The translations under genes were made by a program, and so were the position numbers. From Thermodesulfobacterium sp. (GTDB lineage Bacteria; Desulfobacterota; Thermodesulfobacteria; Thermodesulfobacteriales; Thermodesulfobacteriaceae): a stretch of DNA of 64,000 nt. Below, one piece after another: positions 7,719 to 43,061 of this stretch (its first letter is position 1; each line of letters begins with the position of its first letter). The DNA is taken from assembly GCA_017656385.1 (NCBI GenBank), contig JACDNX010000008.1, forward strand, positions 1 to 64,000. Reading direction: 5' to 3'. The notes beneath the pieces are model-generated. The model saw only the letters and a program-made list of their open reading frames with translations, was not told where the DNA came from and did not search any database.

Positions 7719-8822
7719 ATGGTAGAAGGAGTATTAAATAGTAGTTTTATAGATATAAATTTACTCAATGCACTCTATTTAATTTTTGTAGGATTTGTTG
7801 GTGGTTTGGTAAGTGGTTTTATAGGAAGTGGTGGGGCATTTATATTAACTCCGAGTATGATGAGCTTGGGAGTTCCGGGCTTAGTAGCTGTTGCAAGTAA
7901 TATGTGTCATAAATTTCCTAAAGCTTTAGTTGGAGCAATTAAAAGAGCGAAATTTGGTCAGGTTGATTTAAAATTAGGTCTTATCATGGGTGCCTCTGCA
8001 GAAGCAGGTGTTATGTTTGGAGCTCACATTCAGGAATATATTAAAAAGACTTGGGGGAATGCTGGTTCTAGTCTTTATGTGAGTCTTGCTTTTGTTGTTA
8101 TATTATCTATTGTTGGAACCTATGTCCTTTGGGACGCACTTAAGAGTAAAAAACAAGGAGTACCTTCTGGAGAATTTGAAAAGCCTGATAACAAGATTAT
8201 TAGGTTTATTCATTCTATTAGAATCCCTGGAACTATGGTATACTTTTCAAGTATAGGGAAAGAAATTTCTGTACTTCTAACCATTCCTCTTGGATTTGCT
8301 ACTGGAATGCTTGCAGCAACTATTGCCGTTGGGGGATTTATAGGGGTTCCTTCTATGATTTATGTTTTGGGAGTACCTGCTCTTAAATCCTCTGCTACAG
8401 AGCTGGTAATAGCTTTTGTTATGGGTGCAGGTGGTTCTTTTAAATATGCCTGGAGTGGTTTTGTAGATGTAAGACTATCTATGCTTATTCTTTTAGGATC
8501 CCTTTTTGGCGTTCAGTTAGGTGCTATTGGAACAACCTATGTAAAAGACTATATGATAAAAATTGTTATGGGAACCATAATGCTTATAGTATTAGTAAGC
8601 CGCGGTTTAATGATCCCTGTATATTTACATCAGTTAAATGTATGGTTTCATTTAACTCCTGAAGTGATAAAATGGTTAAAGATTTTAAGTTTTGCAATAA
8701 ACTTTACTGCTCTTTTAACAGGATGTTTCATTGTATTGGGGGCTTTAATAAAAGGGATTAGAGAAGAAAGAGCCTATCTTAAAAAAGAAGCTTTTTATAT
8801 GGCTGAGGAGAGAAAATTTTAG
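7719..8822 (+). CDS. TauE/SafE-family sulfite/organosulfonate exporter
   Basis: A 367-residue integral membrane protein of the TauE/SafE (DUF81) family, whose members export sulfite, sulfoacetate or related anions. The family signature appears twice: GGLVSGFIGSGGAFILTPSMM near residues 28-48, and the second half with FATGMLAATIAVGGFIGVPSMIYVLGVPALKSSATEL. A hydrophilic loop of about 45 residues separates the halves. An AGGAGGTG site lies upstream of the ATG. Adjacent stress and membrane proteins and the sigma-54-type control suggest regulated anion export. The substrate is not shown by the sequence. Confidence 0.85.
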   Translation: MVEGVLNSSFIDINLLNALYLIFVGFVGGLVSGFIGSGGAFILTPSMMSLGVPGLVAVASNMCHKFPKALVGAIKRAKFGQVDLKLGLIMGASAEAGVMFGAHIQEYIKKTWGNAGSSLYVSLAFVVILSIVGTYVLWDALKSKKQGVPSGEFEKPDNKIIRFIHSIRIPGTMVYFSSIGKEISVLLTIPLGFATGMLAATIAVGGFIGVPSMIYVLGVPALKSSATELVIAFVMGAGGSFKYAWSGFVDVRLSMLILLGSLFGVQLGAIGTTYVKDYMIKIVMGTIMLIVLVSRGLMIPVYLHQLNVWFHLTPEVIKWLKILSFAINFTALLTGCFIVLGALIKGIREERAYLKKEAFYMAEERKF

Positions 8823-8848
8823 CGATATTCTGTAGGGGGGAATAATAA

Positions 8849-9721
8849 ATGAAAGTTTTTCAACTTTATAGAAGGATATTAGTCGCCTGTGGAGTGGAGC
8901 CCCCAGGGCTTCACGCTTTAAAAGAAATTATTAAATATATAAAAGATAATGGCAGAAGGCTTATTGCTCTCTCTGTAGTGCCTTTTCATGAGGGAGATCT
9001 ACATCTATGGGTTTTTAAAGACCTTGAAAAAGAATTTAAAAAACCCTTTGAAAAGGTTTTAGAAAAGATTAAAGAAATAGGAAATAAGGAAGAAGTTATT
9101 GTAAAAACCATTTTGGAAGAAGGAGAACCCTTTTCTAAAATTGTAGACACAGCTTTAAGTGAAAATTGTGATTTAATAGTGCTTGGCAGAAAGAAAAACC
9201 TTGGTTTGATGGGAAAACTTTTAGGAGCTAATGTTACAAGGGTTATAGGTTACTCTCCTGTTGATGTCCTTGTAATACCTGAGGATTCTAAATTATCTCT
9301 CAATAAGATACTGGTCCCTATGGATGGATCAATATACAGTGAAGTTGCTTTCAAAAAAGCCTGCAAGATTGCACAAAAATTTTCTTCAGAATTACATCTC
9401 CTTTCAGTAGTTGATATCCCTGTAGAGATTTCTGTGCAAAATCCTGATCTGGTTGAAGGTCTTTATAATACTGCCAAAAATATTTTGGGAAAGGTACAAA
9501 GTACTGCTGAGAGTTTAGGAATAAGAACAAAAATTTATATAAGAGAAGGAGATCCTGGAGAAAAAGTTTTGGCTTTTATAGAAGAAAAAGAGATAGAAAC
9601 GGTGGTAATGGGTTCTTATGGAAAAACCGGAATTAAAAGATTACTTATGGGAAGTGTTGCAGAAAAAGTTTTAACTTTTACTTCTGTTCCTGTATTGATT
9701 TCTAAGGATTTAGAGCTTTAA
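8849..9721 (+). CDS. Tandem universal stress protein (UspA-type)
   Basis: A cytoplasmic protein of 290 residues with two Usp domains, about 1-145 and 146-290. The second has the full ATP-binding pattern GSYGKTGIKRLLMGSVAEKV (Gly-x2-Gly-x9-Gly-Ser). The first has a looser version, GRKKNLGLMGKLLGANV. It is the last gene of the 6933 operon and is followed by a strong hairpin terminator. The same exporter-then-Usp order recurs at 9955-14169, suggesting these Usp proteins act on or sense the transported compound or energy state. That link is an inference. Confidence 0.88.
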   Translation: MKVFQLYRRILVACGVEPPGLHALKEIIKYIKDNGRRLIALSVVPFHEGDLHLWVFKDLEKEFKKPFEKVLEKIKEIGNKEEVIVKTILEEGEPFSKIVDTALSENCDLIVLGRKKNLGLMGKLLGANVTRVIGYSPVDVLVIPEDSKLSLNKILVPMDGSIYSEVAFKKACKIAQKFSSELHLLSVVDIPVEISVQNPDLVEGLYNTAKNILGKVQSTAESLGIRTKIYIREGDPGEKVLAFIEEKEIETVVMGSYGKTGIKRLLMGSVAEKVLTFTSVPVLISKDLEL

Positions 9722-15203: not shown

Positions 15204-15294
15204 CGGAGGAGGGGGGATTCGAACCCCCGAAGGGAGAATTACCTCCCTTAGCCGATTTCGAGTCGGCCCCCTTCGTCCACTCGGGCACTCCTCC
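15204..15294 (-). tRNA. tRNA-Ser (anticodon CGA)
   Basis: The minus strand folds as a class II tRNA of 91 bases. The acceptor stem is GGAGGAG/CTCCTCC with discriminator G. The anticodon stem GCCGA/TCGGC encloses the loop CTCGAAA, so the anticodon is CGA (codon UCG). The variable arm is GGGAGGTAATTCTCCC, and the T arm is GGGGG-TTCGAAT-CCCCC. The 3' CCA is not encoded. Confidence 0.95.
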
Positions 15295-34688: not shown

Positions 34689-35014
34689 CAAATATCTTTT
34701 GTTTCTTTAAGAAGCCAGTTTAAGAAACACTCATTTGTTTTTTTTATTTGAATTTTGGCTATACAAGGACAAGTATAAGAGTGAAGTTCAAGAATTTTCT
34801 TCTCTGCTAATTCTGAAAGAGATTCTTTTGTTTTTACAATCATAATGGATTCTCTTGACTTTTCTATTTTCCCTTCCCACCAATACATTGATGCTATTTG
34901 GGGATATATATTGACACAGGCACAGAGCCTTTCTTTTAAAAGGGCTTCCCCTATTTTTTGAGCCTCCTCTTCAGAACTACAGGTTACATAAAGAAATACG
35001 ATCTTATCCTTCAT
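34688..35014 (-). CDS. cutA: CutA divalent-cation tolerance protein
   Basis: A 108-residue CutA1 trimer-forming protein. The signature LYVTCSSEEEAQKIGEAL with LLKERLCACVNI and the EGKIEKSRE stretch match the family. The precise role, metal tolerance or otherwise, is debated. It lies between moeA and the sirtuin gene and overlaps both, so all three share one transcript. Confidence 0.92.
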   Translation of the reverse strand: MKDKIVFLYVTCSSEEEAQKIGEALLKERLCACVNIYPQIASMYWWEGKIEKSRESIMIVKTKESLSELAEKKILELHSYTCPCIAKIQIKKTNECFLNWLLKETKDI

Positions 35015-36243
35015 AAAATTTCCACCTCCACCTCTTCATCTTTTTCAAATCCCAGAAGATCTTCAGGAATACAAAGTATTCCATTTGCCTTCACTAAGGT
35101 CATAATAAGCCCTGATTTACTTAGAAGTGGAGTAGCAAAAAGATTATTATCTCTTTCTTCTAAGTATACTCTGATAAAATCTGTCCTTCCTGCCTGTGAA
35201 AAAATACTTCTTGTTAATTTAGCTTTAACCTTAGGTTTGTAAATTTTGTCTGTTAACCCAAGCAATCTATGTATTACTGGTTTTACAAATAATTCAAAGC
35301 ATATATAAACAGCTACAGGATGACCTGGAAGACCAAAAACCGGTTTTTGATTACATATACCTGCTATAATTGGTTTTCCTGGTTTAATAGAAACTCCGTG
35401 AAAAATAACTCCTGGTTCACCAAGCTCATTAATGATCTGAGCAGTCATATCTTTTATTCCTGCACTTGTTCCTCCTGTTATTAAAACAATATCTGAGGAT
35501 TCAAAAGCTTTATCAACAACATCTTTAATTTCTTTATAATCATCTTTAACAATCCCCATTTTGAGAGAAACTCCACCTGTTTCTTCAATTAAACCTGCTA
35601 GGACAAAAGAATTAATGTCTCTTACCTTTCCTGGCATTGATTTTTCGGTATGAGGTATGATTTCATCACCTGTAAGAATGATAGAAACTACAGGTTTTTT
35701 AACCACCTTTATCTCAGAAAATCCCAAACCTGCAAGTGCACCTATGTCCTGAGGCTTTAATTTGTGTCCCTTCGGTATTACAATCTCTCCCTTTTTAATA
35801 TCTTCATCTTCAAAAATTACATTTTCACCAGGACCAACAGGTTTTAAAACTTCTATCAAATCAGAAGAGACAACATTTACATGTTCAACCATTACCACTG
35901 CATCTGCTCCCTCTGGAAGCATTCCTCCTGTTCCAATTTCAGCACATTCACCAGGTCCCAAAGAAAAATCAGGAGCTGATCCCATTTGGATACGAGCTTT
36001 TACAGTTAAATAAGCAGGCATCGTTTCTTTAGCTCCGAAAGTGTCCTGAGATCTTACTGCAAAGCCATCAACAGTTGACCTTCTAAAGCCAGGAAGATTT
36101 TCAGAGGCATAAATATCTTCAAAAGTGACTCTATGATAAGCTTTTTCTATAGGGATAACCTCGTAAGATAAATTCTTAGGGTTTATACGCTTTAAGAAAA
36201 GTTCAATGCTCTTTTTTAAAGTAAGATATTTTTTGTCAAGCAT
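35011..36243 (-). CDS. moeA: Molybdopterin molybdenumtransferase MoeA
   Basis: MoeA inserts molybdate (or tungstate) into adenylylated molybdopterin. The protein has 410 residues with the usual MoeA domains: STVDGFAV near residue 55, and the catalytic domain with LTGDEI, TGGTSAGIKD and KPGKPI-type loops. It is the only MoeA on the minus strand; a second MoeA is fused to another domain at 41130. It is divergent from fdhA, the enzyme that needs this cofactor. Confidence 0.94.
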   Translation of the reverse strand: MLDKKYLTLKKSIELFLKRINPKNLSYEVIPIEKAYHRVTFEDIYASENLPGFRRSTVDGFAVRSQDTFGAKETMPAYLTVKARIQMGSAPDFSLGPGECAEIGTGGMLPEGADAVVMVEHVNVVSSDLIEVLKPVGPGENVIFEDEDIKKGEIVIPKGHKLKPQDIGALAGLGFSEIKVVKKPVVSIILTGDEIIPHTEKSMPGKVRDINSFVLAGLIEETGGVSLKMGIVKDDYKEIKDVVDKAFESSDIVLITGGTSAGIKDMTAQIINELGEPGVIFHGVSIKPGKPIIAGICNQKPVFGLPGHPVAVYICFELFVKPVIHRLLGLTDKIYKPKVKAKLTRSIFSQAGRTDFIRVYLEERDNNLFATPLLSKSGLIMTLVKANGILCIPEDLLGFEKDEEVEVEIL

Positions 36244-36481: not shown

Positions 36482-39400
36482 ATGGATGTTAAATTTACAA
36501 GGAGGGATTTTTTAAAGTTATCCATAGGTTCTTTGGTTTTAAGCTCCTTAGGAATAAACTTAGAGCCTGTTAAAGCATATGCGAAAGAGCTCAAAATTAA
36601 GAATGCTAAAGAAACGACAACCATTTGTCCTTACTGTTCTGTGGGATGTGGAATTATTGTTTATTCTAAAGGAGGAAAGGTAGTAAATACAGAGGGAGAT
36701 CCTGATCATGTTATTAGTAGAGGTAAGCTTTGTCCAAAAGGTGCTTCACTTTATCAGCTTGCCAATAATCCCACAAGACTTTTGAAACCACTCTATCGTG
36801 CACCCTATTCTGACAAATGGAAAGAGGTTTCTTGGGACTGGGCTCTTGATAGAATTGCTAAACTGGTAAAGAAAACCAGAGACAAATATTTTATTTACAA
36901 AAACGAAAAAGGTCAGGTGGTAAACAGAGTGGAAGCAATTGCCCATGTAGGTTCTGCTGCTCTTGATAACGAAGAGTGTTACATTTTACAAAAATTTTTG
37001 AGGGCGCTGGGAATTGTATATATAGAGCATCAGGCGCGTATATGACATAGTGCAACAGTGGCGGCTCTGGCAGAGTCGTTCGGAAGAGGAGCTATGACAA
37101 ATCATTGGGTTGATATGAAAAACTCTGATGTAATTTTAGTAATGGGTGGAAATCCTGCTGAAAATCATCCAGTATCCATGCAATGGATACTCAAAGCTAA
37201 AAAAGAAAGAGGAGCAAAGTTAATTGTAGTTGATCCTAAATATACAAGAACAGCCTCTCAGGCAGATCTTTTTATTCAGATTCGTCCAGGAACAGATATA
37301 GCTTTTCTTGGAGGGTTGGTTAAGTATATTATTGATAATGAACTTTACTTTAAAGACTACATAGTAAATTATACAGATGCAGCCTTTTTAGTAGATCCTA
37401 ATTTTAAGGATACCGAAGATTTGGGTGGTGTATTTTCTGGATACGATCCTAAAAAGAAAAAATATAATAAATCCACTTGGAAGTATCAACTTGATGAGAA
37501 TGGAATTCCCAAGAAGGATCCTACTTTAAAGGATCCTAACTGTGTATTTCAGTTATTGAAAAAGCATTTTTCAAGATACACCATAGATGTGGTTTCTGAA
37601 ATTACTGGTGCACCAAAAGAAAAGATTTTAGAGGCTTACAAGATTTATGCTTCAACTGGAAAGCCGAACAGAGTTGCAACTGAATGTTATGCAATGGGAT
37701 GGACTCAGCATACAGTGGGAACACAGAATATTAGATGTATGGCAATTATTCAGCTCCTTCTCGGAAATATTGGAATGGCTGGTGGTGGAGTAAATGCATT
37801 AAGAGGAGAATCTAATGTTCAGGGTTCAACAGACATGTGTCTACTTTTCCACATTTTGCCTGGTTATTTACCTATGGTCAGAGCTTCTCATGTGGATTTG
37901 AAGACTTATATTAAAAAAACAACCCCTAAGAGTAATGATCCCAAGAGTTTGAACTGGTGGAAGCACAGATCCAAATATATTGTTAGTCTGCTTAAGGCTT
38001 TCTGGGGAGATTATGCAACTCCTGAGAATGATTTTTGTTTTAACTACCTACCCAAACTTGACGACGGCAAAGCTTATAGCTGGTATGACCTTTTTGATGC
38101 TATGTATAAAGGTAAAATCAAAGGATTTTTTGCCTGGGGACAAAATCCTGCATGTTCCAGTGCTAATGCTAATAAAGCAAGACAGGCTCTTTCAAAGCTT
38201 GACTGGTTAGTATGTGTGAATCTTTGGGATAGTGAAACAGCTTCTTTCTGGAAAGGACCTGGAATGGATCCAAAGAAAGTAAAAACAGAGGTATTTTTAC
38301 TTCCGGCTGCAGCTTCAGTTGAAAAAGAAGGAAGTATTACAAATTCTGGAAGATGGTTGCAATGGAGATACAAAGCAGTTGAACCACCTGGGGAAGCAAG
38401 ACGCGATGCAGAGATTGTAGATGAGCTTTATAAAAGAATAAAAGCTTTATATGAAAAAGAAGGTGGAGCTTTTCCTGATCCTATAGTTAAACTTAACTGG
38501 AATTATGGAGATGGTGAGGTAGATACTAAACTTATTGCTAAGGAAGTAAATGGATACTTTACCAAGGATACCACAGTTAAGGGTAAAAGATTTAGAAAAG
38601 GTCAACAGGTTCCCAATTTTGTTTACTTGAAGGATGATGGATCAACTGCATGTGGAAACTGGCTTTATTCAGGAAGTTATACAGAAGAAGGAAATATGAT
38701 GGCAAGGAGAGAGAAAATTGATCCTACAGGACTTGGAATGTATCCGAAGTGGGCATGGTGCTGGCCTGTTAATAGAAGAGTTCTTTATAACCGTGCAAGT
38801 GTTGATCTGATGGGTAATCCATGGGATCCTGAAAGACCAGTTATTAAATGGAATCCTTCCACAAAGAAGTGGGTTGGAGATGTGCCTGATGGACCACAGC
38901 CTCCTCTTGCTCTTGGTGGTGTGTTGCCATTTATTATGAAACCAACAGGTGTAGGAACTATATTTGGAAAAGGTCGTGCAGATGGACCATTCCCCACACA
39001 TTATGAACCTGCAGAGTCTCCATTTAAGAACATACTTTATCCAAAAGTTAGAATTAACCCTGTTGCAAGGATATTTAAGGATACTCCTGTTGACAAATTG
39101 GTATTAGGTGGAGATCCAAGATTTCCTTATATTGCAACTACATACAGAGTTACAGAACATTGGCAGACAGGTCTTATGACAAGGAATATGCCTTGGCTTC
39201 TTGAACTTGAACCTCAGGTATTTGTAGAGATGAGCAAAGAACTTGCTAAGGAGATTGGAGTAAAAAGCGGAGATAAAGTGATTGTTACTTCTCCAAGAGG
39301 AAAAATTTGGGCGATAGCAGTAGTTACTGAAAGAATTAAACCTTTAAGAATTGAGGGACATACTTGTCATATAGTAGGAATACCATGGCATTATGGATGG

Positions 39401-39520
39401 AGATGGCCTGAAGATGGAAGTGGAGGAGATAGTGTCAACCTTCTTACTCCACCTGCTCATGATCCGAATACCTCTATTCAGGAAACTAAATGCTTTGCAG
39501 TAAATATAAAAAGGGCATAA
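36482..39520 (+). CDS. fdhA: Formate dehydrogenase alpha subunit, selenocysteine protein
   Basis: One 1012-residue protein if TGA at 37043-37045 is read as selenocysteine 188. The context QARI-U-HSATVAALAESFGRGAMTNHW matches the QARV-U-H motif of FdnG/FdhA. Residues 6-12 hold the Tat motif TRRDFLK, so it is exported. A 4Fe-4S site (CPYCSVGCG) and the molybdopterin domains follow. It oxidises formate (Mo or W bis-MGD) in the periplasm and passes electrons to FdhB. There is no frameshift: both sides of the TGA are in the same frame. It heads the fdhA-fdhB-fdhE-moeA operon. Confidence 0.94.
37043..37080 (+). promoter_or_regulatory. UGA selenocysteine codon with SECIS-like hairpin
   Basis: After TGA (37043-37045) and a gap of 14 bases comes a stem of nine pairs, GGCGGCTCT (37060-37068) with AGAGTCGTT (37072-37080), closed by a GGC loop and including three G-T pairs. 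Position and shape fit a bacterial SECIS for SelB. The encoded peptide is VAALAESF, so the hairpin is under coding constraint. Confidence 0.75.
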
Positions 39521-39584: not shown

Positions 39585-40301
39585 ATGGGAAGGAAAGCGT
39601 TACTTATAACTCCAGAGTTATGTATAGGATGTAGAGCTTGTCAGGTAGCATGTAAATCCTGGAATAATTTACCTGCAGAGAAAACAAAAAATAATGGAAC
39701 TCATGAAAATCCACCAGATCTTTCAGGGTATACTTATGTGAAAATAAGGTTTATAGAAAAAGAAGTTAAAGGTGAGGTAAAATGGCTTTTTGTTCGTCAA
39801 TCGTGTATGCATTGTGGTGAGCCTGCATGTGTGCAGGTGTGCCCAGTAGGAGCTATGCAGAAGGATCCTGAAACAGGTATTGTTTTTTACGATAAAAGCA
39901 TATGTATAGGTTGTCAGGCATGTAGATCAGCCTGTCCTTTTGATGTCCCAAGATATGATAAAGAAGGTAAAATTAGTAAGTGTTATATGTGTATAGATAG
40001 AGTAAAAGCTGGACTTGAACCTGCTTGTGCTAAAACCTGTCCTACGGGAGCTATAAAATTTGGAGAAAGAGATGAGCTTATAGCACAGGCTAAAGCTGAG
40101 GGATTCAAGGTGCTTTACGGAGAAAAGGAACTTGGAGGATTGGGAGTAATATTTGCACTCAATAGAGAGCCAGCTTATTACAACCTTGTAGAAAATCCGA
40201 AGGCACCTGAGAAAGTTGTTGCTCTTGGAGAAATGCTTAAGATTCTTGTTGCTAAGGGAATTCCTATTAACAATTCTATAATTAAAGAGTTTCTGAGCTA
40301 A
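39585..40301 (+). CDS. fdhB: Formate dehydrogenase beta (iron-sulfur) subunit
   Basis: A 238-residue electron-transfer subunit with cysteines for four 4Fe-4S clusters: CIGCRACQVAC, CMHCGEPAC with VCPVGAM, CIGCQACRSACPF, and CYMCIDRV with CAKTCPTG. It takes electrons from FdhA. There is no signal peptide, so it is probably carried out with FdhA by Tat. It lacks the C-terminal membrane helix of FdnH/FdoH, suggesting a soluble FdhAB dimer. A GGAGG site precedes the ATG. Confidence 0.93.
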   Translation: MGRKALLITPELCIGCRACQVACKSWNNLPAEKTKNNGTHENPPDLSGYTYVKIRFIEKEVKGEVKWLFVRQSCMHCGEPACVQVCPVGAMQKDPETGIVFYDKSICIGCQACRSACPFDVPRYDKEGKISKCYMCIDRVKAGLEPACAKTCPTGAIKFGERDELIAQAKAEGFKVLYGEKELGGLGVIFALNREPAYYNLVENPKAPEKVVALGEMLKILVAKGIPINNSIIKEFLS

Positions 40302-40383: not shown

Positions 40384-41127
40384 ATGGATGTTGAAGTTAT
40401 AATTAAAAAACTAAAAGAAGAAAAACCCTATTTAAAAAGTCCTTTAGAATTATATGAAAAAGTGCTGACTTTTAATAAAAATTGTAAAAAAATTTTGGAG
40501 AAGGAAACTCAAAATAGTTTATTAAATAAGATCATTGATGAGTTTTCAGGTCTTTTTGAAATACCTTACGAATTTGCTTCTTTTTTAAAATCTTCAATTA
40601 TTAATAGTGGCAAAGATCCTTTTAAAGAACCAAGAAGTATTTTAGAGCTTCCTGTAAGTGAGGAAGAAGTTTCCAGAGAGGAAATCAGTAGAGCTCTCTT
40701 TATTCTTTCAAAACCTTTTTTTGCAAGGTATAGAGAAACTTTAAAAGAAAAGAAAAAATTTGAAGAAACTGGAAAGTGTGGTGTTTGTGGAGCACATGTA
40801 TCTTTAACCATGATAGATGAAGAAAATAGAAGACATATGGTTTGCACTGTATGTGGTCATAAAGAAGAAATATTCAGAATAGGATGTAGCTACTGTATGC
40901 AAAAGGTATGTGAAAAGATAGATCTTTTAGTGGATGAGGATGAGATAAGAGTTGAGCTCTGTAAAGATTGTAAGACCTATATAAAAAGTTTTAAAGATGA
41001 AGTGTATCAAAAATATAAAGATCCCTATTTGATAGATATAATTAGTATGCCTCTTGATGTTGTTGCTCAGGAAAGAGGTTATATAAGAAGGTCTCCAAAT
41101 ATAATAGGGATAAAGGAAATAGTCTAA
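40384..41127 (+). CDS. fdhE: FdhE-like formate dehydrogenase accessory protein
   Basis: A 247-residue protein with an N-terminal helical half and a zinc/iron-type C-terminal half. It has four CxxC motifs: CGVCG, CTVCG, CSYC and CKDC. FdhE binds the catalytic subunit and helps maturation or export of formate dehydrogenase. The position after fdhAB supports it. There is no strong ribosome site, and the 3' end lies two bases before the moeA fusion. Confidence 0.82.
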   Translation: MDVEVIIKKLKEEKPYLKSPLELYEKVLTFNKNCKKILEKETQNSLLNKIIDEFSGLFEIPYEFASFLKSSIINSGKDPFKEPRSILELPVSEEEVSREEISRALFILSKPFFARYRETLKEKKKFEETGKCGVCGAHVSLTMIDEENRRHMVCTVCGHKEEIFRIGCSYCMQKVCEKIDLLVDEDEIRVELCKDCKTYIKSFKDEVYQKYKDPYLIDIISMPLDVVAQERGYIRRSPNIIGIKEIV

Positions 41128-41129
41128 AA

Positions 41130-43061
41130 GTGGAGAAGAAAGTTTTTCACGAGCTTCTCCCTTTTGATTCTGCACTTAAGCTTCTTTTAGAAAATTTTAA
41201 AGAAAAAGTTTTCTATCCCTTATCTTCGGAAACAATCTCAGTTAAAGATGCGCTTAATAGAGTGACAGCAGAGCCTGTTTTTGCCAGAATTTCTTCTCCT
41301 TATTTTCATTCTTCTGCTATGGACGGTTATGCAGTCAGGGCAAAAAGTACTTTTTCTGCTACAGAAAAAGATCCTGTAAAGTTAGAAATTGGAAAAGAAG
41401 CTATCTGGATTGAAACAGGAGATCCGCTTCCAGAGGATTTTGACGCAGTTATTCCTGTTGAGGAAGTTAATGTCTATGAAAACTACATTGAGATTTATAA
41501 AGCCTATCCACCCTATCACGATGTAAGACCTGTTGGTGAGGACATAGTTGCTACAGAGCTTATAATACCTGAGAACCACTTTGTCAGACCTGTAGATATA
41601 GGTGCTATGCTTGCAAGCGGAATTTTGAAGATTAAAGTAAGGAAAAAGCCTTTAGCAGGAATAATTCCTACAGGCTCAGAATTAATAGAGCCGGAAAGGA
41701 TAGAAGAAGGAGCTTTAAAGCCTCCGGCTCTTATTGAATATAATTCCTCGGTTCTGGCAAATCTTATAAAAGAAGACGGTGGAGAAGCTAAGGTATATCC
41801 AATTGCTAAAGATGAAGAAAAAGATATAGAAGAAAGTATTTTGAAAGCCTGTGAGGAATGTGACCTTATTCTTCTAAATGCAGGTTCTGGTTATGGTAAG
41901 GAGGATTTTACTTACAAAGTATTGAGCAAACTCGGGGAAATTATTATAAATGGTGTAGCTATAAAGCCTGGCAAACCTTTTATAGCGGGATTTGTTGAAA
42001 ATAAACCTGTTCTGGGAATTCCTGGTTATCCTGTTTCAGCCTTTTTTTGCTATCATCTATTTGTCAAACCACTTATAGAAATGTATTTAGGTGCAAAGCT
42101 GAGAAGAGAAGAAAAAATTCAGGCAACACTTTCAAGAGGTATATCCTCCGGCATAGGGGTGGACGAATTTGTAAGGGTTAAGGTGGGAAAGGTTGGAGAT
42201 AAGTATATTGTTTCTCCTGTAGGAAGGGGTGCAGGTCTTCTTATGTCGGTTGTAAGAGCAGATGGCTATATTGTGATACCTTCTGGCTCTGAAGGATATT
42301 CTCAGGAACAGACTGTAGATGTCTATCTCTGGAAGTCAAAGGAAGAAATTGACAATACCATTGTTTGTATAGGAAGTCATGATAACACCCTTGATATTCT
42401 TTACAATTATTTGAGAAAAAAATATCCCCATATAAGTCTTTCTTCTGCTCATGTTGGTTCTATGGGAGGACTTATTGCTGTAAAAAAAGGAGAGGCACAT
42501 ATAGCAGGAACTCATCTTCTGGATGAAACAACTGGAGAATATAATATACCTTTTATCAAAAGACTTTTGCTTGAAAAAAAGGTAGTGTTAATAAATCTGG
42601 TATACAGGACTCAGGGATTGATTGTAAGAAAGGGAAATCCAAAGAATATAAAAGGTTTTGAAGATTTGAAAAGAGAAGATGTGGTTTTTATCAATAGACA
42701 GGCTGGTTCTGGAACAAGACTTCTTCTGGATAAGCATTTAAGGGAAATAGGAATAAATCCTTCTCAAATTAGAGGATACGAAAATGAAGAATATACACAT
42801 ATGGGAGTTGCACAGGCTGTTGCAAGTGGTAGAGCAGATGTAGGTTTAGGCATTTTGGCAGCAGCAAAGGCGCTGGATCTTGATTTTATCCCGGTAGCAG
42901 AAGAAAGATACGATATCCTTATTGCAAAAGAATTTTTAGAGCTGGAAATTATCCAGGCACTTCTTGATGTAATAAAGAATGATGAAGAATTTAAAAAAGC
43001 AGTTTTATCCTTAGGAGGATATGATATAAGAGATATGGGAAAAATAGTTTACGAAAGTTAA
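41130..43061 (+). CDS. MoeA fused to a periplasmic-binding-like domain
   Basis: A 643-residue protein with GTG start. Residues 1-400 or so are a MoeA (SSAMDGYAV, PTGSELIEP, NAGSGYGKEDF, KPGKPFIAGF). Residues about 405-643 are a LysR-substrate/PBP-type domain (IGSHDNTLDILYN, AGTHLLDETTGEYNI, FINRQAGSGTRLLLDKHL, GLGILAAAKALDLDFIPVAEERYDI, cited in part). The fusion is known in archaea and some thermophiles, where the binding domain is thought to recognise molybdate, tungstate or a related ligand. It is the last gene of the formate dehydrogenase operon and overlaps convergent yihY by four bases. Confidence 0.87.
   Translation: MEKKVFHELLPFDSALKLLLENFKEKVFYPLSSETISVKDALNRVTAEPVFARISSPYFHSSAMDGYAVRAKSTFSATEKDPVKLEIGKEAIWIETGDPLPEDFDAVIPVEEVNVYENYIEIYKAYPPYHDVRPVGEDIVATELIIPENHFVRPVDIGAMLASGILKIKVRKKPLAGIIPTGSELIEPERIEEGALKPPALIEYNSSVLANLIKEDGGEAKVYPIAKDEEKDIEESILKACEECDLILLNAGSGYGKEDFTYKVLSKLGEIIINGVAIKPGKPFIAGFVENKPVLGIPGYPVSAFFCYHLFVKPLIEMYLGAKLRREEKIQATLSRGISSGIGVDEFVRVKVGKVGDKYIVSPVGRGAGLLMSVVRADGYIVIPSGSEGYSQEQTVDVYLWKSKEEIDNTIVCIGSHDNTLDILYNYLRKKYPHISLSSAHVGSMGGLIAVKKGEAHIAGTHLLDETTGEYNIPFIKRLLLEKKVVLINLVYRTQGLIVRKGNPKNIKGFEDLKREDVVFINRQAGSGTRLLLDKHLREIGINPSQIRGYENEEYTHMGVAQAVASGRADVGLGILAAAKALDLDFIPVAEERYDILIAKEFLELEIIQALLDVIKNDEEFKKAVLSLGGYDIRDMGKIVYES

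Follow-up and report, generated by a model that had tools for sequence, protein, structure and literature searches.

Does the TGA inside a formate dehydrogenase gene of Thermodesulfobacterium sp. end translation, or is it read as selenocysteine (Sec)? The gene, fdhA, lies on the forward strand of the window, the 64-kb stretch of DNA analyzed here. Its frame runs from an ATG at 36482 to a TAA at 39520 and is open except for a sole in-frame TGA at 37043–37045, codon 188. As anticipated in a preliminary description of the locus, both halves share one frame and gene calling splits them: under translation table 11 the gene is broken into two open reading frames (ORFs), 36482–37045 and 37058–39520. 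Translated with read-through, the gene gives a formate dehydrogenase (FDH) alpha subunit of 1012 residues with Sec188 in the peptide EHQARI-U-HSATVAALAESFGRG. In a profile search this protein scored 1501.5 bits against TIGR01553 (formate dehydrogenase-N alpha, curated cut-off 814 bits), the match covering residues 6–1010 of 1012. The Desulfovibrio Sec-FDHs 1h0h, 6sdr and 8cm4 and the E. coli FDH-N 1kqf align over its entire length. Residue 188 falls on the Sec of the solved Desulfovibrio enzymes at EHQARI-U-H, which is deposited as X or C, in keeping with the earlier placement of the TGA at the QARI-U-H site. The first 33 codons (36482–36580, forward strand) encode what appears, from the translation read by eye, to be a Tat signal peptide (TRRDFLK ... 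AYA).

The two table 11 ORFs are what a genuine stop would leave, either in a pseudogene or in two separate genes, one for the N-terminal 187 residues and the other, with a GTG start, for the C-terminal part. We regard this as exceedingly improbable, as the TGA coincides exactly with the catalytic Sec position of a family conserved over its full length, the 1012 codons hold no frameshift and no further stop, and selA, selB, selC and selD are all present in the genome. Read-through at a Sec codon is the reading pursued below.

Codon 188 is TGA in 106 of 108 aligned homologues, the other two having TGT and TGC, respectively. The closest fdhA is a partial sequence, L094, from the Thermodesulfobacterium sp. 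MAG AUK151, followed by those of T. geofontis and T. hydrogeniphilum. The homologue of T. hydrogeniphilum DSM 14290, a cultured relative, shares the UGA and the hairpin (L017). L094 is 99% identical, comes from another isolate, and carries TGA at the Sec site just as the present assembly does. The agreement between L094 and the present assembly bears on the possibility that a Cys codon (TGT or TGC) was misread as TGA during sequencing or assembly, which would make the enzyme a Cys-FDH. The two Cys homologues, one of them from the same genus (L096), lend that explanation some plausibility, but the TGA recurs in L094 and in the 106 homologues, the downstream hairpin is intact at every one of the codons that are frozen among relatives, and the genome holds the full Sec machinery. 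An error of this kind is thus about as improbable as a true stop, and a UGA codon for Sec at 37043–37045 (forward strand) remains the favored reading.

Downstream of the TGA, on the same strand, lies a candidate bacterial SECIS hairpin at 37060–37080. Bases 37060–37068 pair with 37072–37080, giving nine pairs closed by the loop GGC (37069–37071), with the first paired base 15 nt past the TGA, as the preliminary description had it. A published model of the bacterial SECIS (bSECIS) asks for a loop of 3–9 nt, a stem of 4–16 bp, a G within the first two loop bases, a distance of 16–37 nt from the UGA and a minimum free energy of at most -7.5 kcal/mol (PMC13188914). The fdhA hairpin lies within all of these limits, with a 3-nt loop, a 9-bp stem, G as the first loop base, a spacing of 23 nt and an energy of -10.1 to -11.5 kcal/mol. 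Folding of the region produced the nine-pair hairpin, but its energy was unexceptional: -11.5 kcal/mol over 37035–37090 is no better than that of shuffled sequences (z = +0.72). Thermodynamic folding was therefore rejected as proof of a SECIS; free energy by itself is no such proof, and conservation is. A scan of the 64-kb window with Rfam at gathering thresholds returned no SECIS family, its single match being a tRNA. The inner seven pairs (37062–37068 with 37072–37078) are conserved, and the outer two are G-U pairs here. Many homologues lack the outermost pair, codon 193 being GTT in 45 of 106, so the functional helix probably comprises about seven to eight pairs.

Conservation at the codon level is what sets this element apart. 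Codons 194–199 read GCG GCT CTG GCA GAG TCG, and not one synonymous alternative to them occurs among the 106 homologues with TGA. Ranked by relative codon entropy among 425 conserved degenerate columns (median 0.92), these six codons occupy the six lowest places. Chance is excluded by the TGA in 106 of 108 homologues together with this absence of synonymous variation. Nor is the freeze an artefact of retrieval, since the relatives were fetched with back-translated peptide patterns that favored no codon and of which none lay within codons 194–199. The register of the helix offers a reason for it. The third bases of codons 194, 195, 197, 198 and 199 face the second bases of codons 199, 198, 196, 195 and 194, respectively; the codons contributing these second bases all specify amino acids that are conserved, and the loop opens with the G that ends the Leu196 codon. 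Pairing and protein constraint together would thereby fix each third base of codons 194–199. The amino-acid changes that do occur there, to Pro, Thr or Ser at 194 and to Gly at 197, are confined to the stem base or the loop.

The Cys homologues serve as natural controls. A complete genome of the same genus (G100) encodes two FdhAs, each approximately 86% identical to that of the window. Its UGA copy (L125) has kept the hairpin, whereas in its TGT copy (L096) the codons read GCC TTG GCA GAA TCT and the hairpin is gone. The control is a clean one, with hairpin codons frozen while UGA stands for Sec and drifted in the Cys copy of the same genus. Next to the Cys copy, fdhB follows, and no fdhE-like gene or moeA lies within the fetched stretch (L126). 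A different situation is seen in L049, the FdhA of a Nitrospirae MAG (G198), where codon 188 is TGC and the hairpin codons are intact, although a longer stretch is predicted to fold otherwise. In the same MAG, selB lacks its middle through an internal deletion and selA persists only as frameshifted, deleted pieces beside a surviving tRNA-Sec. Unless the MAG is misassembled here, its genome appears to have lost Sec decoding recently and to have kept FdhA as a Cys enzyme. Remnant SECIS structures in Cys FdhA have been reported before (Zhang et al. 2006, PMC1794560), and L049 resembles those cases in that its SECIS-like hairpin codons remain intact behind a Cys codon; the fdhA of the window differs in retaining both the UGA and the whole machinery. 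A tentative extension is that the codon register has locked the SECIS of this clade, leaving an 18-base sequence that scarcely varies across Thermodesulfobacteria, Nitrospirae and Desulfobacterota, a proposal that we consider unlikely on balance. If true, the locked SECIS would serve as a near-universal DNA signature of this clade of Sec-FDHs and would also mark genes that have recently gone from Sec to Cys.

As the preliminary description had predicted, selA, selB, selC and selD were all detected when sought genome-wide in the source assembly (1.67 Mb, 44 contigs). Profile matches identified selA (617 bits, cut-off 268), selB (391 bits, cut-off 242) and selD (341 bits, cut-off 125), and selC, the tRNA-Sec, was found on contig 6 (80.6 bits, anticodon TCA). 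A tRNA within the window, at 15204–15294, was considered as selC and rejected as tRNA-Ser CGA. The selD gene (G000 contig 16, about 8094–9026) is itself interrupted by one in-frame TGA, at the U of KASG-U-AAK, and a stable hairpin lies downstream of it. SelD is accordingly predicted to be a second selenoprotein, so that at least two are predicted in the genome. A NiFeSe hydrogenase was rejected as a further one, its matches being without an in-frame TGA. The machinery also weighs on a third alternative, in which a residue other than Sec, such as Trp carried by a near-cognate tRNA, is inserted at the UGA, or in which the frozen codons have some different role at the RNA level. While the identity of an inserted residue is not readable from DNA alone, several observations speak against this alternative: a dedicated tRNA-Sec and SelB are encoded in the genome, the hairpin conforms to the bSECIS model, and L096, the Cys homologue of the same genus, has accumulated changes in the frozen codons. 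Such a reading is very improbable, if marginally less so than a stop or a Cys-codon error, and Sec remains the residue expected at position 188.

The genes that follow fdhA on the forward strand are, in order, fdhB, an fdhE-like gene and moeA. The fdhB gene (39585–40301) encodes a putative iron-sulphur beta subunit of 238 residues, whose best NCBIfam match is FDH-beta TIGR01582 (188 bits, under the cut-off of 335); of 80 genome loci retrieved, 75 have fdhB beside fdhA. The fdhE-like gene (40384–41127), present in 35 of these 80 loci, encodes a likely accessory protein matching FdhE TIGR01562 at 50 bits, also under the cut-off. Because both fall below their family cut-offs, assignment to a particular FDH subtype depends on FdhA. 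The product of the gene at 41130–43061 is a molybdopterin biosynthesis protein in which MoeA is joined to a substrate-binding-like domain (PRK14498, 778 bits, cut-off 534 exceeded). A second MoeA gene, divergent from fdhA, lies on the reverse strand at 35011–36243; its best match among MoeA models is PRK14498 at 459 bits, under the cut-offs. The fdhA-fdhB-fdhE unit is flanked in this way by two different MoeA-type genes. An fdhD gene is present in the genome. No gene for a gamma cytochrome b, another cytochrome partner or a membrane subunit was recognized beside fdhB. The Tat signal on the alpha subunit suggests an enzyme of the periplasmic FdhAB type, and the small Fe-S beta subunit encoded next to alpha has the composition expected of that type.

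Among characterized enzymes, Desulfovibrio FdhAB (1h0h, 6sdr) shares the full-length alpha subunit, Sec at EHQARI-U-H, a Tat-type signal and the alpha-beta gene pair. The present enzyme differs in belonging to a thermophilic genus and in having an fdhE-like gene and the MoeA fusion downstream. E. coli FdnG (FDH-N, 1kqf) belongs to the same TIGR01553 family and is homologous over its full length but scores lower (1035 bits versus 1318 for 1h0h), and unlike its locus, the present one has no gamma cytochrome b gene identified beside fdhB.

Taken together, the product of fdhA is almost certainly the catalytic subunit of a formate dehydrogenase of the periplasmic FdhAB type, with Sec188 as metal ligand and a UGA decoded via the hairpin. 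Standard bacterial Sec insertion is favored because homology, machinery, codon freeze and agreement with the bSECIS limits all point to it, and the preliminary interpretation of FdhA as a selenoprotein is borne out by its homology, the sel genes and the conserved UGA and hairpin. In the proposed mechanism, Sec-tRNA would be made by SelA and SelD; SelB with GTP and Sec-tRNA(UCA) would bind the hairpin at 37060–37080, and the UGA at 37043–37045 would be decoded as Sec and not as a stop. Sec188 would then ligate the metal (Mo or W) of a molybdopterin cofactor supplied to the enzyme by FdhD, FdhE and MoeA. From these data we infer the actual insertion of Sec, the metal, the location of the enzyme and the direction of its reaction.

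Within the literature collection searched, no paper specific to Sec-FDH in Thermodesulfobacterium was found. FdhA has been described as the selenoprotein family of broadest distribution in bacteria (PMC13188914; PMC1794560), so the present gene adds to a known type. The finding is correct and well supported, yet ordinary, reflecting a well-known bacterial arrangement, and it leaves knowledge of selenoproteins unchanged. For this organism, it corrects standard gene-caller output to one selenoprotein, not two fragments, and confirms that the genome holds selenocysteine-decoding machinery.
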